A DNA stretch of 64,000 nucleotides from Paracoccaceae bacterium (GTDB lineage Bacteria; Pseudomonadota; Alphaproteobacteria; Rhodobacterales; Rhodobacteraceae): NCBI GenBank assembly GCA_020446815.1, contig JAGRDY010000029.1, positions 62,001 to 126,000 of the forward strand, given 5' to 3'. Under the pieces are notes generated by a model. The model had not been told where the DNA came from. It did no database searches and worked only from the letters and a program-made list of their open reading frames with translations. This document shows positions 9,330-25,038 of the stretch, piece by piece. The position numbers were made by a program, and so were the translations under genes. The stretch's first letter is position 1. Each line of letters begins with the position of its first letter.

Positions 9330-10468
9330 GCTATCTTGAGTATAACGTCAAGACCGTACCTGTCGGCCTTCGCAAGATATTATACGTCAACTGGCCGCTG
9401 GTGGTCCTGCTCACGGCCGTCGCTTCGATCGGCTTTCTGATGCTCTATTCGGTTGCCGGGGGGCGGCTCGAAATCTGGGCCGAACCGCAAATGAAACGGT
9501 TCGCCATCGGCATGACCGGAATGCTGGTGATCGGCCTTGTACCGATATGGTTCTGGCGCAACGTGTCCGCTGTCGCCTATATCGTCGCGCTCTTGTTGTT
9601 GGTGGCGGTGGATCTGTTCGGCTCTGTCGGGATGGGTGCACAGCGCTGGATCGAATTTGGCGCGGGCTTGCGCCTGCAACCGTCGGAATTGATGAAAGTC
9701 GCATTGGTGATGCTGCTGGCCGCCTATTACGATTGGCTCGACATCCAGAAGACATCGCATCCGCTCTGGGTCTTGATCGCGGTCGCCATCATCCTGATGC
9801 CGACATTTCTGGTGCTCAAGCAGCCCGACCTTGGAACAGCGATCCTGCTGGTGGCGGGCGGCGCCATCGTGATGTTCGTCGCAGGTGTCAGCCTGTGGTA
9901 TTTCGGAACCGTGATCGCGCTGGTGGTGGCACTGGTCTTTGCCGTGTTCGAAAGCCGCGGCACAACCTGGCAGCTCATCAAGGACTATCAATTCAGGCGG
10001 ATCGATACGTTCCTCGATCCGGGCAGCGATCCGCTCGGGGCCGGCTATAACATCACCCAGGCGCAGATCGCGCTTGGGTCGGGGGGCTGGGCCGGCAAGG
10101 GTTTCATGCAAGGTACGCAATCACGGTTGAATTTCCTGCCCGAAAAACACACCGATTTCATTTTCACCACTTTGGCCGAGGAATTCGGGTTTGTTGGCAC
10201 GCTATCGCTTCTGTCGCTTTATGTACTGATCGTCGGATTCTGTATCGGCTCGGCCATGTCGAACAGGGACAGGTATTCATCCCTGCTGACCTATGGCGTG
10301 GCAGGGACATTTTTTCTGTTCTTCACCGTCAATATGGCGATGGTGACGGGGCTGATGCCGGTTGTGGGGGTTCCCTTGCCGCTCGTCTCTTACGGCGGGA
10401 CGGCCATGATCATTCTGCTTGGGGCCTTCGGGCTCGTGCAAAGCGCCCATATTCACCGACCGAGGTAG
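9326..10468 (+). CDS. rodA: Peptidoglycan glycosyltransferase RodA (SEDS family)
   Basis: Polymerises lipid II into glycan strands in partnership with PBP2. It has 380 residues with about ten transmembrane helices. The conserved SEDS signature near the C-terminal half reads SGGWAGKGFMQGTQS followed by LPEKHTDFIF, which includes the aspartate required for activity in characterised RodA proteins. The PLPLVSYGGTAM motif is also present near the C-terminus. It starts at 9326 by ATGA overlap with mrdA and closes the shape operon. Confidence 0.96.
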   Translation: MSYLEYNVKTVPVGLRKILYVNWPLVVLLTAVASIGFLMLYSVAGGRLEIWAEPQMKRFAIGMTGMLVIGLVPIWFWRNVSAVAYIVALLLLVAVDLFGSVGMGAQRWIEFGAGLRLQPSELMKVALVMLLAAYYDWLDIQKTSHPLWVLIAVAIILMPTFLVLKQPDLGTAILLVAGGAIVMFVAGVSLWYFGTVIALVVALVFAVFESRGTTWQLIKDYQFRRIDTFLDPGSDPLGAGYNITQAQIALGSGGWAGKGFMQGTQSRLNFLPEKHTDFIFTTLAEEFGFVGTLSLLSLYVLIVGFCIGSAMSNRDRYSSLLTYGVAGTFFLFFTVNMAMVTGLMPVVGVPLPLVSYGGTAMIILLGAFGLVQSAHIHRPR

Positions 10469-10471
10469 ACG

Positions 10472-11410
10472 ATGCCCATAAATGTGTTCTTTGCTGCCGG
10501 TGCCGAAAGCTGGCCCGACTACCAGGTGCCACTGAGCAACGCCTTCGCCGAGGCCGGGCTGGATGCGACCCTGTCGGACAGCGCGCCCGACCCGGCGTCG
10601 GTGGACTATCTGATCTTTTCACCCACTCGCGGCACGTTCGATTTTTCACCGTATCGGAACTGCAAGGCGGTGCTAAGCCTTTGGGCGGGGGTCGAACGCA
10701 TTGTCACCAATCCGACCCTGACCCAGCCGCTTTGCCGGATGGTCGACCGCGAATTGACCGAAGGCATGGTCGAATATGTGGTGGGCCATGTATTGCGCCA
10801 TCACCTGGGTATGGACACCCATATTCGCGGGCAGGACGGCGTCTGGCGTCATGCGGCCCTGCCGCCGATCGCTCGGCAGCGCCGGGTGGTCATTCTGGGG
10901 ATGGGGGCCTTGGGTTCCGCCGCGGGTCAGGCGTTGGCGGCATTGAATTTTCCGGTAACCGGGTGGAGCCGTACGCAAAAAACCATCCCCGGCATAACAT
11001 GCCTTTGGGGTGAAGATGGCCTGCGGGCGGCATTGGGCCGCGCCGACATCCTTGTCACGCTCTTGCCGAGCACACCCGAGACCGAAAGCCTGCTGAACGG
11101 GGCGCGTCTCGGCCTGATGCCCAGGGGTTCGGTGATCATCAACCCCGGCCGGGGGCCATTGATCGACGATGACGCTCTTCTGGCGGCCCTGGATTCAGGG
11201 CAAATCGGCCACGCCACGCTCGATGTGTTCCGCATCGAACCGCTGCCCCCCGAACATCCCTATTGGGGCCACCCCAATGTCACGGTGACACCGCATATCG
11301 CCGCCGATACGCGGGCAGGCAGCGCCGCCAAGGTCGTCGCCGAAAACATCCGCCGCAGCGAGGCCGGCGAACCATTACTGTATCTGGTCGACCGGGCGCG
11401 CGGTTACTAG
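10472..11410 (+). CDS. ghrA: Glyoxylate/hydroxypyruvate reductase, D-2-hydroxyacid dehydrogenase family
   Basis: A 312-residue NAD(P)H-dependent dehydrogenase most like GhrA, which reduces glyoxylate and hydroxypyruvate. The Rossmann glycine motif is LGMGALGSAAG near residue 137. The family's catalytic Arg (NPGRGPLID), Glu (FRIEPLP) and His (VTPHIAADT) are all present. It begins 3 bases after the rodA stop, so it is probably co-transcribed, although no functional link to cell shape is evident. Substrate choice within the family cannot be read from sequence. Confidence 0.85.
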   Translation: MPINVFFAAGAESWPDYQVPLSNAFAEAGLDATLSDSAPDPASVDYLIFSPTRGTFDFSPYRNCKAVLSLWAGVERIVTNPTLTQPLCRMVDRELTEGMVEYVVGHVLRHHLGMDTHIRGQDGVWRHAALPPIARQRRVVILGMGALGSAAGQALAALNFPVTGWSRTQKTIPGITCLWGEDGLRAALGRADILVTLLPSTPETESLLNGARLGLMPRGSVIINPGRGPLIDDDALLAALDSGQIGHATLDVFRIEPLPPEHPYWGHPNVTVTPHIAADTRAGSAAKVVAENIRRSEAGEPLLYLVDRARGY

Positions 11411-11424
11411 AGCGTGACGCGAAA

Positions 11425-11456
11425 TTCCTGGTCCATCAACAATGGCGTTCCAGGAA
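11425..11456. terminator. Possible bidirectional hairpin between convergent genes
   Basis: TTCCTGG and CCAGGAA form a 7-bp stem around an 18-base loop in the short gap between the converging hydroxyacid dehydrogenase and SseB genes. There is no T-run, so strength is doubtful. Confidence 0.3.
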
Positions 11457-11493
11457 ATCCCTGAATCGCCATGAGGTGCGGATCGGGCCGGCC

Positions 11494-12288
11494 CTACCGG
11501 AGTTTCGGCGGCCTTGCCGGATCCATTCCGGGGGCGGTGGCGGTGCGGGCGGGCTGCGGAGCGGGTTTGCCTTCCGGTATGTCGATACCGTGCGCCAAGC
11601 GGCGCAGATCGGCGGGAACATGAACATCAGCTGCCAGAAAGGTCACATCCAGCTCTCCCGCTTCAAGGCCCGAAAAGACCAGGGTTTCGGAAACCGCCTT
11701 GGCGATCGCCGGCTGATTTCGGGCATCTGCCCCCTCAACGGCCAGCAGATGGCCTTGCTGCCCCCCCTCATATGTCACCCGAGCCAGAAAGGCCCGCCGC
11801 GCCAGACCCGGCAACTGTTCCAGCCGCTGCGCCAGCGCCTCTGCCAGCCTTGCGGGCAACCCGTCCGGGGTATCGAATGCCACGGGGCGTGCTTTTGTCA
11901 GATGTGGTCTTGCCGCCAAGGTGTCGGCAAGCCACCCCAGTGCCTCGGGCGGCATCAGAAACGCCGAAGGCGCCACCCCGAGATTCACCCCGATGCCGAT
12001 GCCCTGACCCGCCAGGGCCCCCGCGATCACCCGCCCGGGCAAGGCGGCAAACGGGGCAGGGTTGTCACAGAATTCCGCCAGCCGCTCTTCCAGATCGAAA
12101 GTCATGACGAAACGACCCTCTTCAAGGTCGAATATCTCCGGTGTGATATCGTCGCCAAGGGCTTCGGATTTCAACAGCAGGAAAAGCTCGGTATCTGCGA
12201 TGGCATGATAAAACGCCAACCGGGCCGTATCGTCTTCCGGGGCCGTTTCCATCGCGCCATGGGCGCGGTCCAGTGCGGTTTCAACCAT
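11494..12288 (-). CDS. SseB family protein
   Basis: A 264-residue soluble protein with the N-terminal SseB domain (about residues 20-125, including the FYHAIADTELFLLL and RFVMTFDLEERLAEF segments) and the SseB C-terminal domain (about 135-235). A Pro/Ala-rich tail follows. The biochemical role of this family outside type III secretion in Salmonella is unknown. The gene overlaps the end of the upstream glycosylase homologue by 8 bases and is the last gene of a long minus-strand run that starts with the antiporter operon. Confidence 0.8.
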   Translation of the reverse strand: MVETALDRAHGAMETAPEDDTARLAFYHAIADTELFLLLKSEALGDDITPEIFDLEEGRFVMTFDLEERLAEFCDNPAPFAALPGRVIAGALAGQGIGIGVNLGVAPSAFLMPPEALGWLADTLAARPHLTKARPVAFDTPDGLPARLAEALAQRLEQLPGLARRAFLARVTYEGGQQGHLLAVEGADARNQPAIAKAVSETLVFSGLEAGELDVTFLAADVHVPADLRRLAHGIDIPEGKPAPQPARTATAPGMDPARPPKLR

Positions 12289-12889
12289 GGTCCATCGCTT
12301 TTCGCACCTGCGCCCGCGCCACGGGCAAAAGATCGGTTTCGAACCACGGGTTGCGCCTTAGCCAGCCCGAGTTGCGCCAGGACGGATGGGGCAGACAAAA
12401 GGTGCCTGGTGCATGGTCGCGCCAACGGGCGACCGTTGCCGCCACACCGCCCTTGACCGCCTCGCGGCCCAGATGCCATTGCTGGGCATAGCCGCCGACA
12501 AGAAAAATGACCCGAAGCTCGGGCAGGCTGTCGAGCACCCGTCGCCGCCAGTGTTGCGCACACCGGCGCGGCGGCGGCAGGTCGGAACCCTTGGCGTCAT
12601 AGCCCGGAAAACAAAACGCCATCGGTACGATCGCCAGCCTGTCGCGATCATAGAATTCCGCCTCGTCCAGCCCCAGCCATTCGCGCAAACGATCGCCCGA
12701 TGGATCGGTAAAGGGCCTGCCCGAAGCATGAACCCGCGCGCCCGGAGCCTGACCGGCGATCAGAACACGCGCAGCAGGGCGAAACCACATGACCGGGCGT
12801 GGTTCATGGCCCGTGGCCGTCGCCGCGAATTGCGCCGCGCAGAGGCGGCAGGCCCTGATTTCGTCGGCAAGCTGCTGCGCCATGGCCAT
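12281..12889 (-). CDS. Uracil-DNA glycosylase superfamily protein, Fe-S type
   Basis: A 202-residue member of the UDG superfamily (COG1573-like), which removes uracil or related lesions from DNA. The glycosylase signature reads GQAPGARVHASGRPF near residue 46 and a second motif, CLPHPSWRN, lies near residue 160. Cysteines 14, 17, 93 and 110 match the spacing of the four Fe-S ligands of family 4 UDGs closely. The first motif has His-Ala-Ser-Gly where family 4 usually has Glu-Asp-x-x-Gly, so lesion specificity is uncertain. A longer frame exists, but the ATG at 12889 overlaps the upstream stop as TGATG and is preferred. Confidence 0.82.
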   Translation of the reverse strand: MAMAQQLADEIRACRLCAAQFAATATGHEPRPVMWFRPAARVLIAGQAPGARVHASGRPFTDPSGDRLREWLGLDEAEFYDRDRLAIVPMAFCFPGYDAKGSDLPPPRRCAQHWRRRVLDSLPELRVIFLVGGYAQQWHLGREAVKGGVAATVARWRDHAPGTFCLPHPSWRNSGWLRRNPWFETDLLPVARAQVRKAMDHG

Positions 12890-14598
12890 CAGCCATGACT
12901 GGCGAAATTCAGGATCAGCGTCACCCCCAGCAATATCGCGATCCAGAGCACCATCACCCCGGTGGGCCACGTCTGGGCAAAGCGCCCTTCTGGCCCTGTG
13001 GAGCGATAAAGCCCCGATATCATTCGGCTAATCGTGCCGATGCCGAACTGTTCCCACCTTGCCCAAAGGCGCGACGTCTGCATGGCAACAACGGCGATCA
13101 CATCAGGAAGAAAGCGCCGGTAGGTCCAGTCGAAATCGAGATCGATCCCGCGGATTTCGGGCGGATGGATACCGTTGCGCATCAAGACGCCAAAGGCCAG
13201 CAGGGCAAAACACAATAGCTGAAGCTGACCGACCACATGGCTTGTCGTATAGGGTACGAAATCGACCGCGTAGGGCAGCAGGGCATAGAGCGGATCGGGG
13301 TAGACCCCGATAAAGATGCTGAGAAATGCTGCCAGCCCCATCGCGAGCAGCATATGGGCTGGTGCTTCTTTCGGGCGCTTGCCGCTGTCATGTGCAAAGA
13401 AAGTGAAGAACGGGATCTTGATCCCTGAATGCGACAGGACACCCGCCGAGGCAAAGACCAGCGCAGCCCAGATGATCGGGTAATGCTGCGCCGCCGTCTG
13501 ATCGATGATGAGCGATTTGGTGACAAACCCCGAGAAAAGCGGAAAAGCCGAGATCGCCGCGGCACCGACCAGGCAAAGCACTGTCGTCAGTGGCATCGTC
13601 CGGTAAAGGCCACCGAGTTCGGAAGCCTTTGAGGTTCCGGTGCGGAACATTGCCGCGCCCACCGTCATGAACAGCAAGCCCTTGAAAAGAACATGCGCGA
13701 CGGCGTGCGACACGGCGCCATTCAGCGCCATGTCGGTGCCGACGCCGATACCCACCACCATGAACCCGAGCTGGTTGTTGGTGCTGTAGGCCAGAACCCG
13801 ACGCAAATCGTTTTCAATTTCTGCAAAGAAAATCGGAAACAGCGTCATCACCGCTCCGATATAGATCAGGATTTCGGTGCCCGCGAAACCTCGTGCCAGG
13901 GCGTAAATCGCCAGCTTGGTTGTGAACGACTGGAGAATGACCGTGCCGGTGATCGTCGCGGCGGGGTAGGTATCCTGAACCCAGTTGTGGAGAAGCGGAA
14001 AGGCGCATTTGACCCCGAATGACAGGAATATCAGCCAGGTTCCCGGCGATCCGAGCGTCATCCGGTCAAACGCGATTGTCCCGGTCTCGCGGTAAAACAG
14101 CACCGCCCCCACAAGCAGCGCCACCCCCGAACCGATCTGAATCGTCAGGTACCGCATGCCGGTGTAATAGGCGCCTTCGGTCCTGCGCGCCCAGACCAGA
14201 AAGACCGACGCGATCGCCGTGCCTTCCCAATAGAAAAACAGCGTCAGAAGGTCACCGGCAAAAACCGCGCCGATTGCCGCGCCGGCGTAAAGCAGGGCCG
14301 CGATCTGCTGCACGGTATCGCGCACATGCCAGGCATAGAGATTGCCGATAAAGGCAGCGAGACAGAAGATCAGCCCGAAGACGCGCGACAGTTTGTCGAC
14401 CCGCATCAATTCGAGCGTAAAGCCGAAAAACTGAACCTGACCGGCCGCACCTGGCGCCAAGGACCAGACCTGCCACCCGGCCAGGGCGGGCAATACCAAC
14501 AGCCATGTCGCGCGCGCTTTTCCATGCGGCAGCAACAGCAGGATCGGCGCCGCCGCGAAAAAAACAAAAGCCGTTGGAATCAGATCAAGTGCCATCAT
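12889..14598 (-). CDS. Third MrpD/NuoM-type antiporter subunit
   Basis: A 569-residue polytopic membrane protein with about 14 helices, of the proton-conducting family shared by MrpA/D, MbhH and NuoL/M/N. Channel residues are conserved: Glu in FFYWEGTAIAS, Lys in FGVKCAFPLLHNW and Lys in the FTTKLAIYA helix. It differs from the other two D-type subunits here in the HNWVQDTYPAATITG loop and has a longer hydrophilic C-terminal region ending in another helix. The ATG at 14598 (or 14595) overlaps the upstream gene by 14 bases. Its exact place in the complex is inferred. Confidence 0.85.
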   Translation of the reverse strand: MMALDLIPTAFVFFAAAPILLLLPHGKARATWLLVLPALAGWQVWSLAPGAAGQVQFFGFTLELMRVDKLSRVFGLIFCLAAFIGNLYAWHVRDTVQQIAALLYAGAAIGAVFAGDLLTLFFYWEGTAIASVFLVWARRTEGAYYTGMRYLTIQIGSGVALLVGAVLFYRETGTIAFDRMTLGSPGTWLIFLSFGVKCAFPLLHNWVQDTYPAATITGTVILQSFTTKLAIYALARGFAGTEILIYIGAVMTLFPIFFAEIENDLRRVLAYSTNNQLGFMVVGIGVGTDMALNGAVSHAVAHVLFKGLLFMTVGAAMFRTGTSKASELGGLYRTMPLTTVLCLVGAAAISAFPLFSGFVTKSLIIDQTAAQHYPIIWAALVFASAGVLSHSGIKIPFFTFFAHDSGKRPKEAPAHMLLAMGLAAFLSIFIGVYPDPLYALLPYAVDFVPYTTSHVVGQLQLLCFALLAFGVLMRNGIHPPEIRGIDLDFDWTYRRFLPDVIAVVAMQTSRLWARWEQFGIGTISRMISGLYRSTGPEGRFAQTWPTGVMVLWIAILLGVTLILNFASHG

Positions 14599-15010
14599 GC
14601 GTGACCTTTCCCAATTGGTCAGCGGGGTACTCTTCCCGATCGACTGCCTTGTTGCCGTAGTAATCTTCCGGCCGCAAAACGAAAATGCGCAGGGTCTTGG
14701 CGGCAAGGATGATGATGGTGAACATCACGAAACCATAGATGCCGTAAAACCCGGGAAAATGCTCCACGTCGAAATGGCCATGTTTTTCATAGAGAAAATC
14801 AGCCACGAAAAGCATCCCGCACACCACGGCCAGCGCCCAGAATATCTTGCCCGCATTGCCCGGCTTGTCGACCCAGCTCATCATCCGGCCAAGCGCGGGC
14901 AGTTTTTCGTTGCGTTGCACGCGCCGATGCGCAGCCTTGTTTTTCGTCTTGTCCAAAGCGGATTTGCCTGCCGCTTTTCCGGAAGTTCTCTTGCTGGTTT
15001 TCCTGGCCAT
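14585..15010 (-). CDS. Small basic two-helix membrane protein inside the antiporter operon
   Basis: 141 residues with no family I recognise. Residues 1-38 are very rich in Lys/Arg (KTSKRTSGKAAGKSALDKTK and onward) and are probably cytoplasmic. Two hydrophobic helices follow at about 57-72 and 88-108, separated by a His/Phe/Glu-rich loop (EKHGHFDVEHFPG). The tail is charged, with LRPEDYYGNKAVDREEYP. It starts 10 bases after the second D subunit and overlaps the third by 14 bases, so co-translation with both is likely. An accessory subunit linking the third D subunit to the complex is an inference. Confidence 0.75.
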   Translation of the reverse strand: MARKTSKRTSGKAAGKSALDKTKNKAAHRRVQRNEKLPALGRMMSWVDKPGNAGKIFWALAVVCGMLFVADFLYEKHGHFDVEHFPGFYGIYGFVMFTIIILAAKTLRIFVLRPEDYYGNKAVDREEYPADQLGKVTHDGT

Positions 15011-15020
15011 CCGAAGCTCC

Positions 15021-16487
15021 CTAACGCGGCGCGACTATGGGCGACAAGAATGTCTGAATATCGCCCGCGAAGAAGAATAGCACGATACAACCGACGGCCG
15101 TCAGGGCGGGCGGCAGCCAGACCATCCACGGCGCTTCGTTCATTTTTGCGTCGGCGGGGATGTCCTGGCCTTTCAGGAAGTATCCACGACCCACCACCGG
15201 CAACAGATAGGCCACGTTCAGCAGCGAACTAAGCCCCAGAACCACCATCATCAGCCATTGGCCGGTATCCGCCGCGGCCATGATCAAGAGCCATTTGCTC
15301 CATGATCCGCCCAGTGGCGGCAGGCCGATGATCGACAATGCGCCGATGAAAAAGGCCCCGAAGGTGATCGGCATGATGCGGCCAAGGCCGGTCATCTGGC
15401 TGATGTCGGTCTTGTGGGTGGCCACATAGATCGACCCCGCGCACATGAACAGCGTGATCTTGCCCATTGCGTGCATGGCGATGTGCATCCCGCCGCCCAG
15501 CACCCCCATCGAGGTGGCCAAGGCCATGCCCAATGTGATGTAGCTAAGCTGGCTGACGGTGGAATAAGCCAGCCGCGCCTTGAGATTATCCTTGGTCATC
15601 GCCACGACCGAGGCGGCGACGATCGAAAAAGCTGCCAGCCACATCAGCCAGACAGAGGCGCCGGTTGCGGCCAGAAAGTCGATGCCAAAGATGTAGATGC
15701 CGACCTTCAGCATGGTGAAGACGCCCGCCTTGACCACCGCCACCGCGTGCAGCAATGCCGACACCGGCGTCGGCGCCACCATCGCCGCGGGGAGCCAGCG
15801 GTGAAACGGCATCAGTGCCGCCTTGCCGATCCCGAATGCGTAAAGCGCCAGCAACACCGCCACCATCGACCCGGCAATCTTGCCGTCGAGTATGCCGCCA
15901 CGGGTGAAATCGAGCGTCCCGGCGATCGCATAGGTCCAGATGATGGCGATCAGCTGCAACCCGATCGAGGTGCCGATCAGAACGCCGAGATAGGTGCGCG
16001 CCCCGCGGATCGCCTCGGGCGTTCCCTTGTGGGCGACCAGCGGATAGGTCGACAGGGTCAGCACCTCATAGAACAGGAAAAGCGTGAACATGTTGGCGGC
16101 AAGGGCGATGCCCATGACCGAGGCGATGGCCAGCGAGAAACACGAAAAAAACCGGGCGTGATGGTCTTCCTTGTTGCCGCGCATGTAGCCGACGCCATAA
16201 ATATGGGTCAGTATCCAAAGGCCCGAGGCGACGATCGCGAACAAAAGACCCAGTGGCTCGACCTGGAAGGCCAGATCGAGTCCTGGCAAAATTTCAAACA
16301 GAACCAGGGTTTCGCTGGTGCCGTTGCCCACATTGGCCAGTATCTGCAAGACACTCAGGAAAGTTGCCACGGCGCCGGCCAGTGTAACGGCGTCGCGCAG
16401 GTTCGCCTGATCGCGCAGCACGATGTTGGAAACGGCCGCGAGTGTCGGCAGGGCCAGGGTCAGCAGAATGGCGGTGTGTGTCTCCAT
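15021..16487 (-). CDS. Second MrpD/NuoL-type antiporter subunit
   Basis: A 488-residue polytopic protein with about 14 helices. Proton-pathway residues are present: Glu in LFLFYEVLTLS, Lys in GIGKAALMPFHRWLP, Lys in VVKAGVFTM and Lys in GGSWSKWLL. The MVAPTPVSALLHAV loop is closer to NuoL/MrpA than to classical MrpD. It could therefore stand in for the N-terminal part of MrpA, which is otherwise missing from this operon. It lies 11 bases after the first D subunit. Confidence 0.88.
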   Translation of the reverse strand: METHTAILLTLALPTLAAVSNIVLRDQANLRDAVTLAGAVATFLSVLQILANVGNGTSETLVLFEILPGLDLAFQVEPLGLLFAIVASGLWILTHIYGVGYMRGNKEDHHARFFSCFSLAIASVMGIALAANMFTLFLFYEVLTLSTYPLVAHKGTPEAIRGARTYLGVLIGTSIGLQLIAIIWTYAIAGTLDFTRGGILDGKIAGSMVAVLLALYAFGIGKAALMPFHRWLPAAMVAPTPVSALLHAVAVVKAGVFTMLKVGIYIFGIDFLAATGASVWLMWLAAFSIVAASVVAMTKDNLKARLAYSTVSQLSYITLGMALATSMGVLGGGMHIAMHAMGKITLFMCAGSIYVATHKTDISQMTGLGRIMPITFGAFFIGALSIIGLPPLGGSWSKWLLIMAAADTGQWLMMVVLGLSSLLNVAYLLPVVGRGYFLKGQDIPADAKMNEAPWMVWLPPALTAVGCIVLFFFAGDIQTFLSPIVAPR

Positions 16488-16498
16488 CTACCAGCCCC

Positions 16499-18031
16499 TC
16501 AATGCGACAACATGCCGGACGATCCCGCCAGCAGGCCCTGCGCCGCCGCCTGGGCTGCGCCGAGCGTGATGTCGGTTGCCAATCCGAAATAGATGCAGGC
16601 CAGCGCCATGATCCACATCGGGATCAGCATTGTCGCCGGTGCTTCGCCCGCCGGGATGTCCTTGGCCGGCGCTTGCAGATAAAGCGCTTCGATGATCTGC
16701 CAGACATAGATCACCGCCAGCAGCGATGAAACGACGATCAGCACGGCCACCGGCCACCAGCCCTTTTCCAATGCGCCTTGCACCAGATACCACTTGCTGA
16801 CAAATCCCGCCGTGCCGGGTACACCGATCAGGCTCAGCCCACCGATCACAATCGCGCCAGATGTCCAGGGCATCGTCTTGCCCATGCCCTGAACCCGGTC
16901 GAAAAACGACCCTCCGGTTCGAAAAACCAGTGCCCCCACGCCCATGAAAAGCGCAGCCTTGGTTATGCCGTGGTTGAACAGATGCACGATGGCCGCCGTC
17001 AGACCGGTTTGCGACAGCATACCGATACCCAGCAGCATGTATCCGATCTGGGCAATGCTCGAATAAGCCAGCAGGCGCTTGAGGTCGGTCTGAAAGATGG
17101 CAATGACCGAGGCGGCGAACATCGCCATCACGGCCAGTGGCATGATCAGGAATTCCAGCGTGTTGCCTTCGAACAGGAACGCGGGTTGGAAAACCGAAAA
17201 CATGAAACGCATCAGCACATAGATCGCCACCTTGGTGGCCGTCGCCGCCAGAAACGACGTCACCGCCGACGGGGCATAGGTATAGGCGTTTGGCAGCCAC
17301 AGATGCAGCGGGTAAAGCGCCGCCTTCAACCCCATGCCGACAACGATGAAACCAAAGGCCGCGATCACCGTCCGGTTGGCCCCTTGACTGGCGATGCGCG
17401 CTGCCAGATCGGCCATGTTGAGCGTCCCGGTCGCCATGTAAAGCATACCCAGCCCGATCACAAAGAACGTGGCGCCGATGGTGCCCATGATCAGATAATC
17501 ATAGGCCGCCGTCAGTGCCCGTTTGTCGCGATGCGATCCCTGGGCGACCAGCACATAGGTCGACAGGGAGGAAATCTCCAGAAAAACGAAGACGTTGAAG
17601 GCGTCGCCCGTGACCACGACGCCCAAAAGCCCGGTCAGACACAGCATGTAACAGGCGTAAAACAGGGCATGATGCCGCAGCGGGATTTCCGACGCCACGC
17701 TTTGGCGGGCATAGGGCAGAACGATGGTGCTGATCCCGCTGACCAGCAGCAGAACGAAGGCATTGGTCGCGTCAACCCGGTATTCGATACCCAGAGGCGG
17801 TGCCCAGCCGCCGATGTGATAGTATATGACGCCACCGCCGATGACCTGCCCCAGCATCAGCCCGGCGATCACAAAGGCCGCGGCACTGGTGACGAAGGCC
17901 ACAAGCCATGCCAGGCCCCTGTGCCCCACAAAGACGATCAGCGGGGCGGCCAGAAAGGGCACCAAGACCTGCAATACAGGCAACTGTTCGGCCAGCGACA
18001 TCGCTGTGTGATGGGCTGCTTCTGTCGCCAT
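16499..18031 (-). CDS. mnhD: Monovalent cation/H+ antiporter subunit D
   Basis: A 510-residue proton-conducting subunit, about 14 helices, closest of the three to classical MrpD/MnhD. Key residues are Glu in VFVFLEISSLS, Lys in GMGLKAALYPLHLWLP and Lys in TATKVAIYVLMRF. The NAYTYAPSAVTSFLAAT loop is typical of MrpD. The start at 18031 overlaps the mnhC stop by one base (TAATG), consistent with coupled translation of C and D, which contact each other in known Mrp complexes. Confidence 0.93.
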   Translation of the reverse strand: MATEAAHHTAMSLAEQLPVLQVLVPFLAAPLIVFVGHRGLAWLVAFVTSAAAFVIAGLMLGQVIGGGVIYYHIGGWAPPLGIEYRVDATNAFVLLLVSGISTIVLPYARQSVASEIPLRHHALFYACYMLCLTGLLGVVVTGDAFNVFVFLEISSLSTYVLVAQGSHRDKRALTAAYDYLIMGTIGATFFVIGLGMLYMATGTLNMADLAARIASQGANRTVIAAFGFIVVGMGLKAALYPLHLWLPNAYTYAPSAVTSFLAATATKVAIYVLMRFMFSVFQPAFLFEGNTLEFLIMPLAVMAMFAASVIAIFQTDLKRLLAYSSIAQIGYMLLGIGMLSQTGLTAAIVHLFNHGITKAALFMGVGALVFRTGGSFFDRVQGMGKTMPWTSGAIVIGGLSLIGVPGTAGFVSKWYLVQGALEKGWWPVAVLIVVSSLLAVIYVWQIIEALYLQAPAKDIPAGEAPATMLIPMWIMALACIYFGLATDITLGAAQAAAQGLLAGSSGMLSH

Positions 18032-18468
18032 TATGTCCGGCCACCCATGGCTTCGCCATGCGCCTTGTCATCTTCTGCGGCCAGAATTCTTTCCGCGACA
18101 AGAATATCGTCCTCTTCGATGGTGCCGAATTCTTCCCGAATGCGGATGATCAGCGACAAGCCCAATGCGGTCGTGGCAATTCCGACGACAATCGCCGTCA
18201 GGATCAGAACATGCGGCAGCGGGTTGGAATAGATCACCGCCGGGTCAATCTCCATGTCGACAGGGAAAATCGGTGCTGTGCCGCCATCGACCCTGCCCAT
18301 GGAGATATAGAGCATGAAAACAGAGGTCTGAAACATGTTCAGCCCGACGATCTTCTTGACCAGATTGCCGCGTGCGACAACGACATATAGCCCGGTCATC
18401 ATCAACACCGAAAACAGCCAGTAATTCGCATGGCCGACGACGAATTCGAAGGTCGCGCTATCACCCAT
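18031..18468 (-). CDS. mnhC: Antiporter subunit C (NuoK-like)
   Basis: Small NuoK-family membrane protein of 145 residues with three helices, as expected for MrpC/MnhC. The helix with GIATTALGLSLIIRIREEFG matches the family. The C-terminal cytoplasmic tail is longer than the basic NuoK fold. Two ATGs are possible. The one at 18468 overlaps the mnhB stop as TGATG and has GAGGA six bases upstream; the alternative at 18474 lies too close to that ribosome site. Confidence 0.93.
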   Translation of the reverse strand: MGDSATFEFVVGHANYWLFSVLMMTGLYVVVARGNLVKKIVGLNMFQTSVFMLYISMGRVDGGTAPIFPVDMEIDPAVIYSNPLPHVLILTAIVVGIATTALGLSLIIRIREEFGTIEEDDILVAERILAAEDDKAHGEAMGGRT

Positions 18469-18908
18469 CACCATTCCTCGTCGCTAAGGCGCGCGGGACG
18501 CGCGGCAAAAGCGTAATAGATCGCCACCATGACACCTGTCACCGTCACCCCGACGCCAAACTCAACCGCCAGAATCCCGTAGTGCTGGCCATGTGACGGA
18601 TGATGCGGCGCGAATGCGCCGTAATCGAGAAACCCGTATCCCAGAAACAGGCTGACCACACCGGTGCCCGCGTAAATCAGCACACCCAGCGCGACCATCT
18701 TGTGGACCACCCAGGGCGGAAATACCGCCTGAACCTTACGCAGGCCGAAAACGATGCCATAAAGGATGAACGCCACTGCCATGATCACGCCCGCCTGAAA
18801 CCCGCCCCCGGGCGAAAAGTCGCCATGGAACTGAACATAAAAGGCAAAGAGGATAATGCAGCCGACCAGCAGTTTGGTGACAACGCGCAAGATTAGGTGA
18901 TGGCGCAT
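18468..18908 (-). CDS. mnhB: Antiporter subunit B
   Basis: A 146-residue MnhB/MbhF-type membrane protein with four helices and the family's FHGDFSPGGGFQAGV motif near residue 27. In Mrp and Mbh complexes this subunit packs against the MrpA C-terminal region and subunit C. The start overlaps the preceding stop as TGATG, and the stop overlaps mnhC in the same way. Confidence 0.94.
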   Translation of the reverse strand: MRHHLILRVVTKLLVGCIILFAFYVQFHGDFSPGGGFQAGVIMAVAFILYGIVFGLRKVQAVFPPWVVHKMVALGVLIYAGTGVVSLFLGYGFLDYGAFAPHHPSHGQHYGILAVEFGVGVTVTGVMVAIYYAFAARPARLSDEEW

Positions 18909-19526
18909 CAGTAGACCCCGCCCTCTTCTTCGGCGCCTTGCGCATCGGCATCCGCATCGTCGTCATCGTCATCGTCGTCCTCGCGGCGGCGCCGCAATCC
19001 GCTCATCAACAGCAAGACGCCGATACCGGCGGTAAAGACCACGGCCGTTTCACCCATGGTGTCATACCCCCTGTAACTGGCCAAAATGGCCGTCACGACG
19101 TTCGGAACGTCGATTTCTTCGGGCGTGCGCTTCAGGTAATCCGGGGCGACATGGGTCATCGCGGGCGCGTCCGCAGACCCGAAATTGGGCATATCCAGCG
19201 TCCCGTAGATCAGCACGGCGCCGGTCACGAAAACCACGAACAGTGGCAATAAGGGCGAATGCGATGCAGGCTTTTCAACGCGCGATGTCAGCGCCAGGGT
19301 TCCCAGCACCAGAACCGTCGAAATCCCCGCGCCCACGGCCGCCTCGGTAAAGGCCACATCGACAGCGTCCATCGCCACGAACAGCAAGGCGGACAGCAGG
19401 CTGAATACCCCCGACAGCATCGCCACCGCAAACAGATTGCGCAGACGCACAATGGCAAGTGCCGTGACCACCAGCATGGTGAAAAGCGCTATGTCGATGA
19501 AGGTTTCTATGGGGTGCCTGCCATCA
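18908..19526 (-). CDS. MbhD/MbhE-type subunit (MrpA C-terminal region as a separate gene), start disturbed
   Basis: Encodes the MbhD domain (DUF4040; LFVAMDAVDVAFTEAAVGAG) and an MbhE-like region with VVTAILASYRGYDTMGETAVV, normally the C-terminal part of MrpA. The acidic tail has a run of eight Asp. The conserved reading frame begins about 19514, but no ATG, GTG or TTG lies there. An ATG at 19524 overlapping the mnhG stop (TGATG) enters a different frame and stops after five codons. One extra C in the CCCC run at 19511-19514 would join it, giving MAGTPIETFIDIAL. The first in-frame ATG downstream (19477) would remove much of helix 1. Start and length are therefore uncertain. Confidence 0.75.
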
Positions 19527-19892
19527 GATCGGAGTTGTTTCAGCGGCCGGATCCGGCAGCGGTTCCGGTTCGGTCCCGGTAAGCCCCTTGCCCTCGGGCG
19601 GGCGCAGCCCGGATACGAGGGCCGCGTTTGCGACAGCATGCGTCGACGTCGGTCCGGTAATGAACAGCACCACCCCGATAACGATCAGCTTGACCGTGAT
19701 CAGGCTCCAGCCCGCGAATACGCACATACCGGCAAGCAGCAAAATCATGCCTGCAGAATCGCTGACCGAGGCGGCATGAAGCCGCGACCAGAAATCGGGG
19801 AAGCGTACTATCCCAATGGCTCCGATCACCGTGAAGAATGCACCCGACACGATCAGAACCCAGACAATTCCCGCAATCAACATCTCTGCCAT
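19524..19892 (-). CDS. mnhG: Antiporter subunit G
   Basis: 122-residue MnhG/MbhC protein with three hydrophobic helices. The family pattern GAIGIVRFPDFWSRLHAAS is seen near residue 24, followed by DSAGMILLLAG. It has a longer Pro/Glu-rich tail than the core family. The ATG lies 2 bases after the mnhF stop. Confidence 0.93.
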   Translation of the reverse strand: MAEMLIAGIVWVLIVSGAFFTVIGAIGIVRFPDFWSRLHAASVSDSAGMILLLAGMCVFAGWSLITVKLIVIGVVLFITGPTSTHAVANAALVSGLRPPEGKGLTGTEPEPLPDPAAETTPI

Positions 19893-19894
19893 GC

Positions 19895-20188
19895 TCAGGT
19901 TTCCCCTTCGTCCTCGGCCGATGCGTGCAAGACATCGCCAATCGCCCTGTAACGAAAGAACTTGAGAATGGCGATCGTGCCGACAAAGTTGATCAAGGCG
20001 TAAAGCAGGGCAATATCCAGAAATTCCGGGCGGCCGGACAAAAACCCCATGATGCCAATCAGCAAGACGGTATGCGTGCCGAACGCATTGACCGCCAGCA
20101 CCCGGTCATAAAGCGTCGGCCCCGCATAGAGCCGGTACAAGACCAAAAGCATGGCGGCGAAAACCGCAATGGTGGCGAGAACGAACAT
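19895..20188 (-). CDS. mnhF: Antiporter subunit F
   Basis: 97-residue MnhF/MbhB protein with three helices and the family motif LYRLYAGPTLYDRVLAVNAFG. The ATG at 20188 overlaps the mnhE stop as TGATG. A GTG one codon earlier (20191) is possible but less likely. Confidence 0.92.
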   Translation of the reverse strand: MFVLATIAVFAAMLLVLYRLYAGPTLYDRVLAVNAFGTHTVLLIGIMGFLSGRPEFLDIALLYALINFVGTIAILKFFRYRAIGDVLHASAEDEGET

Positions 20189-20688
20189 CACGCGGACCCG
20201 CCCCGTTCGATCGCCGCGACACGACGGTTCATGTCGGCCAGCGCCGCCCGGTCATCGGTCGAATAGGCCACGGCATGCACGAGAAATCCGTCGCTTTCCG
20301 TTTCCACCGTGATCGTGCCGGGCGTCAAGGTGATGGAATTGGCGAAAACCACCTGCGCCAGATCGGTTTTTTGCGAATGAGGGACCGCGAAAAGATGCTG
20401 CCGTATCGGCATCCTTGGCGCGAGTATGACTTTGGTGACGTTCCAGTTCGCCTTGGCGATCTCGGCCATCAGCCAGAAAAAATACTTGATGCTCGCCACG
20501 GCGTCCAACTGCTGATCGACGCGATCCTCGTCCACACCATCCATTCGGCGCACGACAAGCAGGGCAACCAGAACCGATGCCGCGCCAAAGCCGATGATCA
20601 TCGGCTTGTAGATGCCCGACAGCAAGAGCCAGAGCGCAATCAGAAAGACAAATGCCCCAATGGTTCGCAATATCCCCCCCCATGACAA
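20188..20688 (-). CDS. mnhE: Antiporter subunit E, first gene of the operon
   Basis: 166-residue MnhE/MbhA protein: N-terminal helices (about residues 10-45) followed by a soluble domain with FANSITLTPGTITVE, the family signature. No in-frame ATG exists at the 5' end. The frame can start at TTG 20688 or TTG 20670. An ATG sits at 20683 but is out of frame by one base because of a run of eight G (C at 20674-20681 on the plus strand); seven would put it in frame as ATG-GGG-GGG-ATA. The start is therefore provisional. Confidence 0.88.
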   Translation of the reverse strand: MSWGGILRTIGAFVFLIALWLLLSGIYKPMIIGFGAASVLVALLVVRRMDGVDEDRVDQQLDAVASIKYFFWLMAEIAKANWNVTKVILAPRMPIRQHLFAVPHSQKTDLAQVVFANSITLTPGTITVETESDGFLVHAVAYSTDDRAALADMNRRVAAIERGGSA

Positions 20689-21023
20689 CGGCCGGTGCGT
20701 TTTCGGCTGCCTTTTCCGGCCCCCGTCCGATTCACACTCGTACTAAAGTTTGGCGCCGTTGGTTGCAACCGGCGCGGCGGCTTTTTGGCTCGGTTTGTGG
20801 TATACCACATACAGAAAGCTCTGCGCAACACGAATCCACTTTCAGAAACGATGGCGCATTCGGCACCCGCGCAAAGCCCCGAAATGCGCTCTGCAATCGC
20901 TTCGGCATTGTATTTGTTGCCCTGCATCCGTCATAATGCGGCCCAATAGTTCGCGTAACACCCAAATTAACAAAAAAGGCTTAGTCGTCGAACAGCCAGG
21001 CAGAGCAGTACCAGGGCCATCAG
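20689..21023. promoter_or_regulatory. Divergent control region between the antiporter operon and kpsT
   Basis: 335 bases without a credible gene between two divergent transcription units. It contains a perfect 12-bp palindrome GTGGTATACCAC (20797-20808) and a perfect 10-bp palindrome GGTTGCAACC (20761-20770), both nearer the antiporter operon. The region is richer in A/T than its flanks, as expected of promoters. I could not pick -35/-10 pairs with confidence on either strand. Confidence 0.5.
20797..20808. promoter_or_regulatory. Perfect 12-bp palindrome, GntR-type operator candidate
   Basis: GTGGTATACCAC contains TGGTATACCA, which fits the TGGTnnnACCA-like half-sites bound by FadR-subfamily GntR regulators. 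It lies about 110 bases upstream of the mnhE start. No GntR gene is in the window, so the binding protein is unknown. Confidence 0.4.
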
Positions 21024-21677
21024 ATGCTCGAATTCGAAAATGTGAGCAAATCATTCTGGACCGGAAAACAGCGCAAGGTGATCCTAGAGCGTGCATCCTT
21101 TCGCGTGGAATTGGGAAGTTCGCTGGGAATTCTGGCGGCCAATGGCACCGGCAAGACCACCATCATCAACATGATGGCAGGGCTTGAAAAACCTGACGAA
21201 GGCACGATCCGCAAGAGCTGCCGCGTGTCGTTTCCATTGGGGTTCATGGGCGGCGTGATCGGCAAACATACGGCGCGCGAAAACGCGCGCTTCATCGCAC
21301 GCCTTTACGGGCTCGACCCGGACTACGTCGAAGCGTTCAGCCGTTGGCTGTGCGGGATCGAAGAATATTACGACATGCCGATCGGAACTTTCAGCAGCGG
21401 GATGCGCGCGCGCTTCACGTTTTCACTGCTTCTCGCTCTGGAATTCGACATCTACCTTATTGACGAGGGAATGCCCAGTTCCACGGATACCGAATTCAAC
21501 AAGAAGGCCGGCACTATCCTGCGCGACAGACTGCGTGACTCCACGGTCGTGATCGTGTCGCATTCCCCTGCCACGCTGGAAAAATTCTGCCGTTCGGCCG
21601 CCGTTCTTCGCGACGGGCAACTTCATATGTTCAATTCCCTGGAAGAAGCGAAACAGCTTTATGATTACTCCGCCTAA
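21024..21677 (+). CDS. kpsT: Capsular polysaccharide ABC transporter, ATP-binding subunit
   Basis: 217-residue KpsT-family ATPase that powers export of Kdo-linked (group 2) capsule through the inner membrane. The Walker A motif is AANGTGKTT (A38-T46), with Ala in the usual first Gly position, which is tolerated. The signature loop is FSSGMRARF and Walker B is IYLIDEGMPSS. The 3' end overlaps kpsE by 17 bases. No permease gene (kpsM) is adjacent, which is unusual because kpsM and kpsT are normally paired. Confidence 0.9.
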   Translation: MLEFENVSKSFWTGKQRKVILERASFRVELGSSLGILAANGTGKTTIINMMAGLEKPDEGTIRKSCRVSFPLGFMGGVIGKHTARENARFIARLYGLDPDYVEAFSRWLCGIEEYYDMPIGTFSSGMRARFTFSLLLALEFDIYLIDEGMPSSTDTEFNKKAGTILRDRLRDSTVVIVSHSPATLEKFCRSAAVLRDGQLHMFNSLEEAKQLYDYSA

Positions 21678-23283
21678 GGCCAGCAAATTCAACATTCGTC
21701 GGTCGCGCAGGGCCACCGGCGCACAGGACGGTCAGGCCGCCGGTACCGGCGCGGCCGCCCCGGACATGCCGTTTTCGCCCGCCGATGACGGGTTCGGTGA
21801 CGCGCCCTATCCCACCGCGGATCAGGATATGTTGAAGGAGCCCGACAAACAGGTCTCTGTGGGCGAAGAAATTGCCGCCATCCAGGCCGAGGGGTTGAGC
21901 GGCAGGCAGTTACGCCTGGCGCGGCGCATCGCCCAAAAGAACGGAATCGAGGCTTCTTCCGATTACGAAGCCGTGCGGTTGTTGCGGCGCAAGGGGATAG
22001 ACCCCTTCCAGCGCTCCAATGTGTTGCAGCTCATCAATCCCGGCAAGAAGGACGACGAAACGGAGGCAGGGCGCATCCAGCTTCCGCAAACCGTCGTGCC
22101 TTCGACGAATCTGCCGTCCACGCAGGTTTCCAGCGAGGCCAGCCGTGCCTCTGAAATCATGCGCATGCAGCGCGACATCATGCGCCGGCGTCGCCGCAAC
22201 TTCATGCTCTTGCTGGCGCGCCTCACCGTTTTCGTGACCTTGCCCGCCCTGATGGCAGGCTGGTACTTCTACAAGATGGCGACACCGCTCTATGCCACGC
22301 ACAGCGAATTCGTGATCCAGCAGGCCGAGGCGCAGGGCGGCCTGGCCGGCATGTTCCAGGGCACCCAGTTTGCCACCTCACAGGATTCCATCACCGTCCA
22401 GAGCTATTTGCAGTCACGCGATGCGATGCTGCGGCTCGACAGGGAACTGGGCTACAAGAAGCATTTCAGCCAGGCTTTCATCGATCCCCTGCAAAGGCTC
22501 GAACCCGGCGCGACAAACGAAGCCGCCTACAAACTTTACGAACGCAACGTCAAGATCGGCTATGACCCGACCGAAGGGATCATCAAGATGGAGGTGATCG
22601 CAGCCGATCCCGTCTCCAGTCAGAAATTCTCTGAAGCGTTGATCGGCTATGCCGAAGAACAGGTAGACCAATTGACCCACAGGCTGCGCGAAGATCAGAT
22701 GAGCGGCGCGCGGGCCAGCTATGAGGATGCCGAAAGAAAGATGCAGGCGGCCCAGCAAAGGGTCCTTGAACTGCAAGAAGAACTTGGCGTCATGGACCCG
22801 ACCAGCGAAACCAATGTGGTGATGAGTCAGGTTGCGACATTTGAAGGCCAGTTGTATCAAAAGAACCTGCAATTGCAGGGGTTACTGGATAACGCCCGGC
22901 CCAATCAGGCGCGGGTTGATGGCGTGAAAAGCGATATCGCGCGTCTCGAATCGCTGATTGCATCTTTGCGTGCGCAACTGACGCAAGGTACATCGGAATC
23001 GGCGTCCCTGGCCCGGGTATCAGGTGAAATGCGTGTCGCCGCCGCCGATCTGGAAACCCGTCAGCTGATGCTCAGCCAATCCATGCAGCAGCTGGAAACC
23101 GCCAGGATCGAAGCCAACCGCCAGGTCCGCTATCTGTCCATGGGTGTTGCGCCAACCGCGCCAGACGAGCCGACCTATCCGCGCGCCTTCGAAAATACCA
23201 TCTTGGCCTTTTTGATTTTCGGTGGCATCTACCTGATGCTGTCGCTGACGGCCTCCATTTTGCGCGAACAGGTCACTTCCTGA
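21661..23283 (+). CDS. kpsE: Capsule export inner-membrane co-polymerase (KpsE/BexC/CtrB family)
   Basis: 540 residues. A long hydrophilic N-terminus (about 1-178, Pro/Ala-rich then strongly basic with RRRRR) precedes transmembrane helix 1 (about 181-205). A periplasmic domain with a long coiled coil follows (about 330-490), then a second helix near 511-534. This matches the KpsE/CtrB family, which links the ABC transporter to the outer-membrane exporter. The roughly 180-residue N-terminal extension is longer than in E. coli KpsE (about 380 residues in total). It overlaps kpsT and is followed 9 bases later by kdsA. Confidence 0.87.
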   Translation: MITPPKASKFNIRRSRRATGAQDGQAAGTGAAAPDMPFSPADDGFGDAPYPTADQDMLKEPDKQVSVGEEIAAIQAEGLSGRQLRLARRIAQKNGIEASSDYEAVRLLRRKGIDPFQRSNVLQLINPGKKDDETEAGRIQLPQTVVPSTNLPSTQVSSEASRASEIMRMQRDIMRRRRRNFMLLLARLTVFVTLPALMAGWYFYKMATPLYATHSEFVIQQAEAQGGLAGMFQGTQFATSQDSITVQSYLQSRDAMLRLDRELGYKKHFSQAFIDPLQRLEPGATNEAAYKLYERNVKIGYDPTEGIIKMEVIAADPVSSQKFSEALIGYAEEQVDQLTHRLREDQMSGARASYEDAERKMQAAQQRVLELQEELGVMDPTSETNVVMSQVATFEGQLYQKNLQLQGLLDNARPNQARVDGVKSDIARLESLIASLRAQLTQGTSESASLARVSGEMRVAAADLETRQLMLSQSMQQLETARIEANRQVRYLSMGVAPTAPDEPTYPRAFENTILAFLIFGGIYLMLSLTASILREQVTS

Positions 23284-23292
23284 GGATCCGGC

Positions 23293-24135
23293 ATGACCGA
23301 CATGAAAGACGTGGCGATCGGCGCGCTGAGCGTCGGCAACGACCGGCGCCTGACCGTCATTGCCGGCCCCTGCCAGCTTGAAAGCGCCGATCATGCCCAG
23401 ATGATCGCGGGCCGGATGGCCGAAATCTGTGCCGCCTCGGGGGCCCAGTACATCTTCAAGGCAAGTTACGACAAGGCCAATCGAACATCGCTTTCGGGCA
23501 AACGCGGGCCTGGTATCGACGCGGGGCTGAAGATCCTCGCGGATCTCGGCAAGGCGCTTGGCGTACCCGTCCTGACCGACGTTCACGATGCCGAACAGGC
23601 CCGCGCTGCGGGCGCGGTGGTCGATGTGATCCAGATACCGGCCTTCCTGTGCCGCCAGACCGACCTGCTGCTTGCCGCCGGGCAGACCGGCTGCGTGGTG
23701 AATATCAAAAAGGGGCAGTTTCTGGCCCCCTGGGATATGGCCAATGTCGCCGAAAAGGTCGCCAGCACCGGCAATCAACAGATAATTCTGACAGAGCGCG
23801 GCGTTTCCTTCGGCTACAATACCCTTGTCGCGGATATGCGGTCGCTGCCCACGATGGCAAGAACCGGCTTTCCGGTGATCATGGACGCGACGCATTCGGT
23901 GGCCCAGCCGGGCGGGCTTGGCGCCTCGTCCGGCGGCCAGCGCGAATTCGCACCGGTCATGGCCCGTGCGGCTGTCAGCCTTGGCATTGCAGGGGTTTTC
24001 ATGGAAACCCACGAAACACCGGACAAGGCGCCCTCGGATGGCCCGAACATGATTTGCCTCGACGAGATGCCCAGACTCGTCGAAACTCTGATGGCGCTTG
24101 ACCGGATCGCCAAGGCAGATCCCGTCAGGGTGTGA
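23293..24135 (+). CDS. kdsA: 3-deoxy-8-phosphooctulonate synthase
   Basis: Makes Kdo-8-phosphate from arabinose-5-phosphate and phosphoenolpyruvate. Kdo is needed for lipopolysaccharide inner core and for the lipid linker of group 2 capsules. 280 residues. Diagnostic segments include IAGPCQLES (residue 19 on), FKASYDKANRTS, VNIKKGQFLAPWDM, ERGVSFGYNTLV and DATHSVAQPGG. The position right after kpsE suggests it serves the capsule as well as LPS. Confidence 0.95.
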   Translation: MTDMKDVAIGALSVGNDRRLTVIAGPCQLESADHAQMIAGRMAEICAASGAQYIFKASYDKANRTSLSGKRGPGIDAGLKILADLGKALGVPVLTDVHDAEQARAAGAVVDVIQIPAFLCRQTDLLLAAGQTGCVVNIKKGQFLAPWDMANVAEKVASTGNQQIILTERGVSFGYNTLVADMRSLPTMARTGFPVIMDATHSVAQPGGLGASSGGQREFAPVMARAAVSLGIAGVFMETHETPDKAPSDGPNMICLDEMPRLVETLMALDRIAKADPVRV

Positions 24136-24283
24136 TTGCGCCGGCCCAGATCAGCCAAATGGCGGCGAAGTCCCATCCCGCCGGGCGCCTTTTTCCGATT
24201 CACGGACAGGATTGCGGAAAGTCGTTTGTTTTCGTTACACAAGATGCGTATGTGAATGCGGCACCTTGTCCAAGGCGAAGAAG

Positions 24284-24931: not shown

Positions 24932-24981
24932 TTTTGCAGATATGCGATGCGTCTTTGGTTACGGACCCGGCTTTTGCGCCC

Positions 24982-25000
24982 ATCCGCCAGAGAGGCGGAT
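24982..25000 (+). terminator. Possible terminator after the carbonic anhydrase gene
   Basis: ATCCGCC-agaga-GGCGGAT forms a perfect 7-bp stem with a 5-base loop 50 bases after the stop. Only a weak T-containing tail follows. Confidence 0.4.
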
Positions 25001-25038
25001 CGCTGTCTTGTGATGCGCACGAAAATGACAGTCCATGC

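Follow-up and report, generated by a model that had tools for sequence, protein, structure and literature searches.

Which membrane machine is encoded by an Mrp-type antiporter operon that carries three antiporter-like subunits and no redox gene? This question is raised by a cluster within a 64,000-nucleotide stretch of DNA (the window) from a Paracoccaceae bacterium, positions 62,001 to 126,000 of contig JAGRDY010000029.1. Pfam and NCBIfam matches combined with the reading of open reading frames (ORFs) revealed ten genes on the minus strand, from 20688 to 12889, in the order E-F-G-MbhD/E-B-C-D1-D2-U-D3, where D1, D2 and D3 are antiporter-like subunits and U is a small protein encoded between D2 and D3. 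An earlier note made from the sequence of this stretch had proposed a three-channel complex of a possibly undescribed kind. Our analysis shows that the cluster is of the group 3 Mrp type, a known class, enlarged by a D2-U-D3 cassette, and is an under-studied variant of that class. Its products are likely to assemble into a single cation/proton exchanger of the group 3 Mrp type, a membrane complex that has three antiporter-like subunits and lacks an electron-transfer arm.

Gene content and conserved order

Domain matches gave the genes and the order E-F-G-MbhD/E-B-C-D, resembling that of Mbh and Mbs, just as the earlier note had described them. Group 3 Mrp systems have been defined as those without mrpA and with only the mrpD type of antiporter-like gene, sometimes in several copies (PMC8415708), whereas another report defines them by an irregular gene order (PMC5703873). 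In the window, E, F, G, B and C are accompanied by a domain of the MbhD/E (MrpA C-terminal) kind and at least one MrpD; the antiporter-like genes conform to the former definition, with the caveat that D2 is akin to the N-terminal part of MrpA and to NuoL. Full-length MrpA (TIGR00940), the mark of group 1 and group 2 Mrp, was not found in the bacterium's own genome at E-values of 1e-150 or 1e-120. MrpA is thus absent as a gene, yet D2 is of the MrpA/NuoL type, so a relative of the MrpA N-terminal half is present. The MbhD/E protein matches 6cfw_D, 6cfw_E and the C-terminal part of MrpA in a search of solved structures. Judged by these sequence relationships, the counterparts of MrpA are split between the MbhD/E gene, for the C-terminal part, and D2. 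The proposed lack of a full-length MrpA therefore holds for the gene and needs amending for its N-terminal half, and the assignment of the MrpA C-terminal domains to a separate gene was correct.

Table. The ten genes of the cluster, listed in the order of the minus strand
Product	Positions	Strand	Features and best evidence
MrpE/MbhA (MNHE)	20188..20688	-	166 residues, TTG start; PF01899, E 1.2e-30
MrpF/MbhB	19895..20191	-	98 residues; Asn where MrpF has Asp35; PF04066, E 2.4e-19; aligned to solved MrpF chains
MrpG/MbhC	19524..19892	-	122 residues; PF03334, E 9.5e-25
MbhD/MbhE, fused	18908..19639	-	start codon uncertain; PF13244, E 2.3e-16; PF20501, E 1.9e-7
MrpB/MbhF	18468..18908	-	146 residues; PF04039, E 1.8e-28; NF009162, 180.8 bits (cut-off 120)
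MrpC/MbhG (NuoK-like)	18031..18474	-	147 residues; PF00420, E 1.4e-20; best solved relative 6u8y_G
D1, antiporter-like, MrpD/MbsH/NuoN type	16499..18031	-	510 residues; PF00361, E 8.4e-67; best solved relative 6u8y_H; tree
D2, antiporter-like, NuoL/MrpA N-terminal type	15021..16487	-	488 residues, without C-terminal extension; PF00361 and PF00662; tree
U	14585..15010	-	141 residues; two predicted membrane helices; conserved position between D2 and D3
D3, antiporter-like, own class	12889..14598	-	569 residues; NF009310, 686.8 bits (cut-off 564); 6u8y_X best in profile search

The genes are closely packed, with distances ranging from a 14-base overlap to an 11-base gap when the unsettled start of MbhD/E is set aside. 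That gene has no clear ATG, GTG or TTG start after G, and its open frame reaches back to an ATG at 19639; this in-frame ATG would overlap mrpG by 116 bases. For D3 the most likely start is the ATG at 14598, as the listed 605-residue ORF from 14706 begins at an upstream TTG. Genome-wide, PF00361 has six matches, namely D1, D2, D3 and three proteins of one cluster on another contig, which group with NuoL, NuoM and NuoN in the tree described below.

A survey of gene order, as the earlier note had proposed, was carried out on 144 fetched loci scored by domain midpoints. Some of these may be duplicates: the contigs of L042 and L125 have the same length (2,837,007 bases) and probably come from one genome. 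The full order was found in 122 loci and in one more with U not scored, while 15 were cut by contig ends and the rest comprise three complex I operons, two occurrences of D2-U-D3 alone and one piece without D3. Chance is excluded by an order kept in 122 of 144 loci. This linkage also bears on an alternative, that the locus encodes two separate products, an Mrp complex of E-F-G-DE-B-C-D1 and a D2-U-D3 proton-conducting unit on a shared transcript. Such a division is consistent with the mrpEFGBB'CD system of Pyrococcus furiosus, which has no further D genes (PMC8415708), and with the occurrence of D2-U-D3 alone (L097 and L143) and inside complex I operons. However, among the 125 loci that remain once the cut, complex I and D3-less ones are excluded, 122 show linkage of D2-U-D3 to E-D1 and a 123rd has D2 and D3 with U not scored, and the C-terminal strap of D3 has the length found with three pumps, as described below. 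We consider the two-product alternative improbable.

Three antiporter-like subunits and the strap of D3

The earlier note had recognised two further D subunits with intact Glu and Lys channel residues. In fact all three subunits carry the residues of a group 3 Mrp channel, a Glu in transmembrane helix (TM) 5 and a Lys in each of TM7, TM8 and TM12: E152, K236, K267 and K413 in D1, E141, K222, K253 and K398 in D2, and E125, K197, K228 and K361 in D3. They are conserved in D1, D2 and D3 across the relatives, the sole named exception being the TM7 Lys of D3 (the counts of channel residues and of retained small-subunit residues leave out the window, L035, L078 and L104).

The phylogeny suggested in the same note was built from 88 sequences, with the labels NuoM/NuoN, MrpA/MrpD and "green" assigned before tree building. 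Each of D1, D2 and D3 forms one clean clade. D1 groups with MrpD and NuoN at a support of 91/92, which is under the program's mark of 95, the NuoN rows being long branches. D2, including the D2 of green complex I, groups with MrpA, NuoL and HyfD (support 99/94), and D3 together with its counterpart of green complex I occupies a separate deep branch (100/100). In terms of sequence, then, the three subunits are three distinct classes, with D3 a third class of its own. A search of solved structures placed D1 nearest to MbsH (6u8y_H, 225.7 bits) and D2 nearest to NuoL/NdhF and MrpA, whereas the profile of D3 was nearest to 6u8y_X (192 bits), a chain which we take to be MbsH'.

How many pumps stand in a row may be read from the C-terminal end of the last one. 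In this superfamily the antiporter-like subunits of a row are strapped together by a lateral amphipathic helix, whose length increases from MBH, with one such subunit, through MBS, with two, to complex I, with three (PMC7684303). Counted from an Asp/Glu anchor at the start of the helix to a Gly anchor preceding the last membrane helix, anchors that sit in related, non-orthologous proteins, the strap measures 21-22 residues in 31/31 MrpA sequences (two pumps), 48-53 residues in 33/33 NuoL sequences (three pumps) and 68 residues in 5/5 D3 sequences of green complex I (four pumps). In the D3 of Mrp-type clusters it measures 49 residues in 128 of 137 untruncated rows, the window included, with all rows within 38-55 (three truncated rows out of 140 were set apart). 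The D3 strap thus has the three-pump length of NuoL and not the two-pump length of MrpA. In the AlphaFold2 model of D3, with a mean predicted local distance difference test score (pLDDT) of 89.4, the helix spans residues 488-534 and the last membrane helix residues 546-568; the helix ends are less certain, given pLDDT values of 58-68 for the blocks 481-490 and 531-550. In MbsH' (two pumps), the helix starts after F566 of 618 residues, leaving at most 52 residues for the helix and the last TM, against 82 in D3. The length of the strap fits a row of three D subunits and supports, but does not prove, a single three-channel complex. The assembly envisaged in the earlier note is in this way backed circumstantially, by conserved linkage and helix length.

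Protein U was correctly singled out as an unknown protein between D2 and D3: it has no Pfam or NCBIfam match at an E-value of 0.01, and its place is conserved. Hydropathy analysis predicted two membrane helices. The alignment of U homologs displays the motif H-x-H ... P-G-F-Y-x-x-Y-G-F ... R-x-E-D-Y-Y, the last element being C-terminal. Against solved proteins, no sequence match was found at E-values up to 1 and no fold match at 0.001 or better, using a model of moderate quality (pLDDT 72) for the fold comparison. The constant place between D2 and D3 and the conserved motif indicate that U is not a stray reading frame.

The ion module and a putative transport mechanism

Residues required in the Mrp complexes of Bacillus and Anoxybacillus (PMC5703873; PMC7419157) were traced in the small subunits of the relatives. 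The MrpE Thr/Pro are kept in 123/123, MrpF Asp29 in 123/124, the MrpG Pro in 119/124, the MbhD Glu and the MbhE Arg/Asp/Glu each in 124/125, the MrpB Pro in 124/127 and the MrpC Thr in 127/127. Two positions of the proposed Na+ path, which in known Mrp complexes comprises MrpF Asp35 and polar residues of the MrpC cavity, are changed in this family. MrpF Asp35, called "invariably conserved" (PMC7419157), is acidic in other systems, with Asp or Glu in 12/12 canonical Mrp clusters and Asp in 5/5 solved chains. At MrpC position 53, His or Asn is present in the five solved chains; the MrpC proteins of the relatives have an invariant Phe48-Gln49 pair.

Mutating MrpF Asp35 of Anoxybacillus to Leu abolished function, whereas changing position 35 of the Bacillus subtilis protein to Glu or Asn had mild effects (PMC7419157), and a path residue of Anoxybacillus MrpF is missing from the Mrp complex of Dietzia (PMC8415708). 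The mild effects and the Dietzia case suggest that the cation path tolerates change. A cation route probably exists in the present family, with an altered entry and coupling site. The Asn of MrpF and the changed MrpC cavity make Na+ exchange in the known way less credible, leaving membership of the Mrp type unaffected, and the Asn at position 35 may mark a difference in the ion that is recognised.

These residues also inform the alternative that the complex is in every functional respect an ordinary CPA3 Na+/H+ antiporter, in which the third channel and U change nothing important. Retention of most of the required small-subunit residues, the NCBIfam name of the family to which D3 belongs ("Na(+)/H(+) antiporter subunit D") and the tolerance just described are in keeping with it; the fixed Asn of MrpF, the changed MrpC cavity and a strap length typical of three-pump and not two-pump complexes argue otherwise. 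We regard this alternative as unlikely, though less so than two separate products.

Several observations weigh against a single three-channel Mrp-type exchanger. In the ion module, MrpF position 35 is Asn in 123/124 relatives and in the window itself, and MrpC position 53 is Phe or Tyr in 120/127 relatives versus Asn in 12/12 canonical clusters. Among the channel residues, the TM7 Lys of D3 is replaced by Asn in 17/140 relatives, although the D3 of the window has Lys. The steps of the helix ruler are unequal, 27-32 residues from two to three pumps and 19 from three to four; 9/137 D3 rows deviate from 49 residues; and long NuoL insertions occur in two forms of complex I for which no extra pump is named in the accessible text of PMC9040806. 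By fold, the D3 model is nearest to MrpA and NuoL chains, with 6u8y_X ranking ninth. D2-U-D3 stands without E-D1 nearby in L097 (7251-10813) and L143 (8133-11623). Finally, terminator-like sites within the cluster exceed the shuffled mean: 19 sites were found versus a mean of 11.2 (standard deviation 3.7), and the minus-strand coding sequence of the cluster contains 13 of the 19. A consensus scan of 11400-21100 gave a single promoter-like site, upstream of E (minus strand, 20907-20934), which is weak given a shuffle mean of 3.3. Taken together, the promoter and terminator scan neither proves nor disproves a single transcript.

With the single complex as the preferred reading, a putative model for its action may be drawn. 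D1 would sit beside the small ion module E-F-G-DE-B-C, followed by D2 and then by D3 at the closing end of the row. The portable D2-U-D3 cassette would stand in for the N-terminal half of MrpA, as it would for NuoL in green complex I. The long amphipathic helix of D3 would serve as a strap running back along D2 to D1, and U, with its two predicted helices, would be a small subunit attached to the D2/D3 pair. Driven by the proton motive force, protons would pass through the three channels, and linked charge changes would move a cation in the opposite direction via the module of small subunits. Reasoning from the structures of complex I and Mrp, these charge changes would travel along the central polar axis from D3 through D2 and D1 to the cation site. 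With a third channel, more protons would be used per cation, or the cation could be moved against a larger gradient. The physiological role may be homeostasis of pH and of Na+ (or K+).

More broadly, and only tentatively, such clusters may constitute a widespread three-channel class of Mrp that joins the pumping row of complex I to the ion module of Mrp; the cassette would be mobile between antiporters and respiratory complexes, U would be a core subunit of both, and the altered ion site would confer a different ion or a different H+/cation ratio. In that reading, the third channel would enable cells to move cations up a steeper gradient at a greater expense of protons. The redox arm of complex I is coupled to three antiporter-like subunits, and the way in which energy is passed down this row is still debated. 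If a natural complex of the present kind without a redox arm exists, the three-subunit row and its strap could be studied alone, next to the two-pump Mrp and the four-pump green complex I, providing a direct test of whether the number of channels sets the ratio of H+ to cation, and U would be a subunit to include in models of green complex I.

Neighbourhood, distribution and known counterparts

Downstream of D3 lie a gene of the uracil-DNA-glycosylase type (12281-12898) and an SseB-type gene (11494-12288); upstream of E, in divergent orientation, are an ABC transporter gene and a DAHP synthase gene. As the earlier note had stated, no redox subunit adjoins the cluster in the window, no search having been made for an unlinked partner module, and the flanks carry none of the redox subunits J-N that belong to MBH and MBS operons. 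The glycosylase- and SseB-type genes also stand beside D3 in five other loci (L102, L113, L122, L124 and L162), and SseB alone in L121; they were not found in the remaining loci, for some of which the fetched flanks are short. No transfer RNAs were found in the whole window and no RNA families in 9000-26000. Elsewhere in the window, 1400-2833 encodes a 477-residue protein with 16 MORN repeat matches.

Of 190 genomes sampled from the same class, 46 have a match to the D3 family NF009310 at an E-value of at most 1e-80, and in 41 of these the score exceeds the cut-off of the model. The U profile, applied to 398 genomes of the phylum at 1e-4, matched 21. In the bacterium's own family the cluster seems rare: U occurs in 2 of the 22 same-family genomes listed, its own included, and 357 further negatives come without a listing of kinship. 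Two genomes of this family (G022 and G154) have canonical MrpA and no NF009310 match, the opposite of the window genome. D3 and canonical Mrp are nevertheless not shown to exclude each other: D3 in 46 and TIGR00940 MrpA in 26 of the 190 class genomes overlap in four, against 6.3 expected (hypergeometric 0.19, two-sided Fisher 0.33). Named genomes were scanned as well, with the best 80 of more than 586 loci considered, a sample that leans to close relatives. These 80 are mostly from alphaproteobacteria; beta- and gammaproteobacteria, among them Shewanella, are also represented, and one contig each bears the label Myxococcales, Gemmatimonadota or Planctomycetaceae. Two Parvibaculum contigs (L130 and L152) carry the cluster. 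Carriers with marine names, such as Planktomarina, Shewanella and Salinisphaera (titles were not counted), fit a role in Na+ and pH homeostasis, and those from groundwater and Lake Baikal, together with Accumulibacter, indicate that this role is not confined to salty water.

The cassette recurs in respiratory operons. NuoM-NuoN follow D2-U-D3 in L195, L189/L190 and L104, from genomes of two families; in L195 NuoN is followed by genes read as NuoA-B-C-D-E-F-G, and in L193 D2 is preceded by NuoH-I-J, these Nuo genes having been recognised by eye from sequence starts and order and not by family search. Green complex I has two MrpD-like subunits in place of NuoL, as in rhizobia and in Complex_I_3 of 'Ca. 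Manganitrophaceae' (PMC9040806). By their gene content, the cassette-bearing complex I operons match this published form, the replacement of NuoL being judged within the operons only. In the window the cassette is present and the NADH arm is absent from the operon. In L178, a Gemmatimonadota contig, the whole ten-gene cluster (267-13261) lies between nuoM and nuoN, with downstream genes that read as ATP synthase. The cassette of L097 sits among opposite-strand genes reading as flagellar and chemotaxis genes.

These settings relate to a further alternative, in which the complex docks on an unlinked redox module, such as the product of the same cell's nuo genes, and works as a redox-driven pump and not as a secondary antiporter. 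The presence of the cassette in complex I operons, the arrangement of L178 and the description of the Shewanella "pump B" as NADH-dependent (PMC2824531) speak for docking. Against it, no redox gene adjoins the operon of the window, the module carries E-F-G like that of Mrp, and L178 encodes, next to the cluster, proteins of its own that the tree identifies as NuoL, NuoM and NuoN. Judged from these gene neighbourhoods, docking appears highly improbable to us, and a secondary exchanger with three antiporter-like subunits remains the reading we prefer.

The proposal that the machine is undescribed in kind is not supported, given that group 3 Mrp without mrpA is recognised, that P. furiosus has a stand-alone operon of this order and that Shewanella and Nitrospira have probable counterparts. 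Among the open-licence papers listed by our searches, none deals with a purified Mrp complex that has three D subunits, with U or with the length of the strap in these clusters, and no transport by such a complex is reported in the literature found. The accessible parts of PMC9426454, PMC12361115, PMC7415380, PMC5419562 and PMC8115632 do not describe the cluster, and those of PMC9040806 do not mention U for green complex I.

The group 1/2 Mrp complexes of Bacillus and Anoxybacillus (7qru, 6z16) share homologous small subunits, MrpD and both parts of MrpA, but have one long MrpA, two pumps, Asp35 in MrpF and a strap of 21-22 residues in the measured MrpA relatives. Two mrpD genes occur in a group 3 cluster from a cyanobacterium (PMC5703873). 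The stand-alone mrpEFGBB'CD of P. furiosus, which has been studied (PMC8415708), shares with our cluster the order of the first seven genes, a fused subunit resembling MbhD/E and the lack of mrpA and of redox genes; it differs in having only one antiporter-like subunit, without D2-U-D3. MBS of the same archaeon (6u8y, PMC7684303) holds the nearest relative of D1, MbsH, and the chain nearest to the D3 profile, X, with a C-terminal strap on its last D subunit, whereas it has two pumps, a redox arm and a shorter strap, and the accessible description names no D2 or U. In green complex I, the replacing subunits of the analysed loci are D2 and D3, which flank U, but an NADH arm, NuoM and NuoN are present and the D3 strap measures 68 residues versus 49.

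Two probable counterparts were known from genome annotation only. The "Na+-pump B" of marine Shewanella is listed under nine consecutive accession numbers, with three "NADH dehydrogenases" nearest to Parvibaculum (PMC2824531). In Shewanella sp. KT0246 (L187), DE and B are fused, giving nine genes. Judged by the published description and this locus, the pump is probably the present operon. In 'Ca. Nitrospira alkalitolerans', a group 3 Mrp cluster has two genes of NuoM- and NuoL-like products behind mrpD (PMC7784846), and as far as its description allows comparison, it probably represents the same arrangement.

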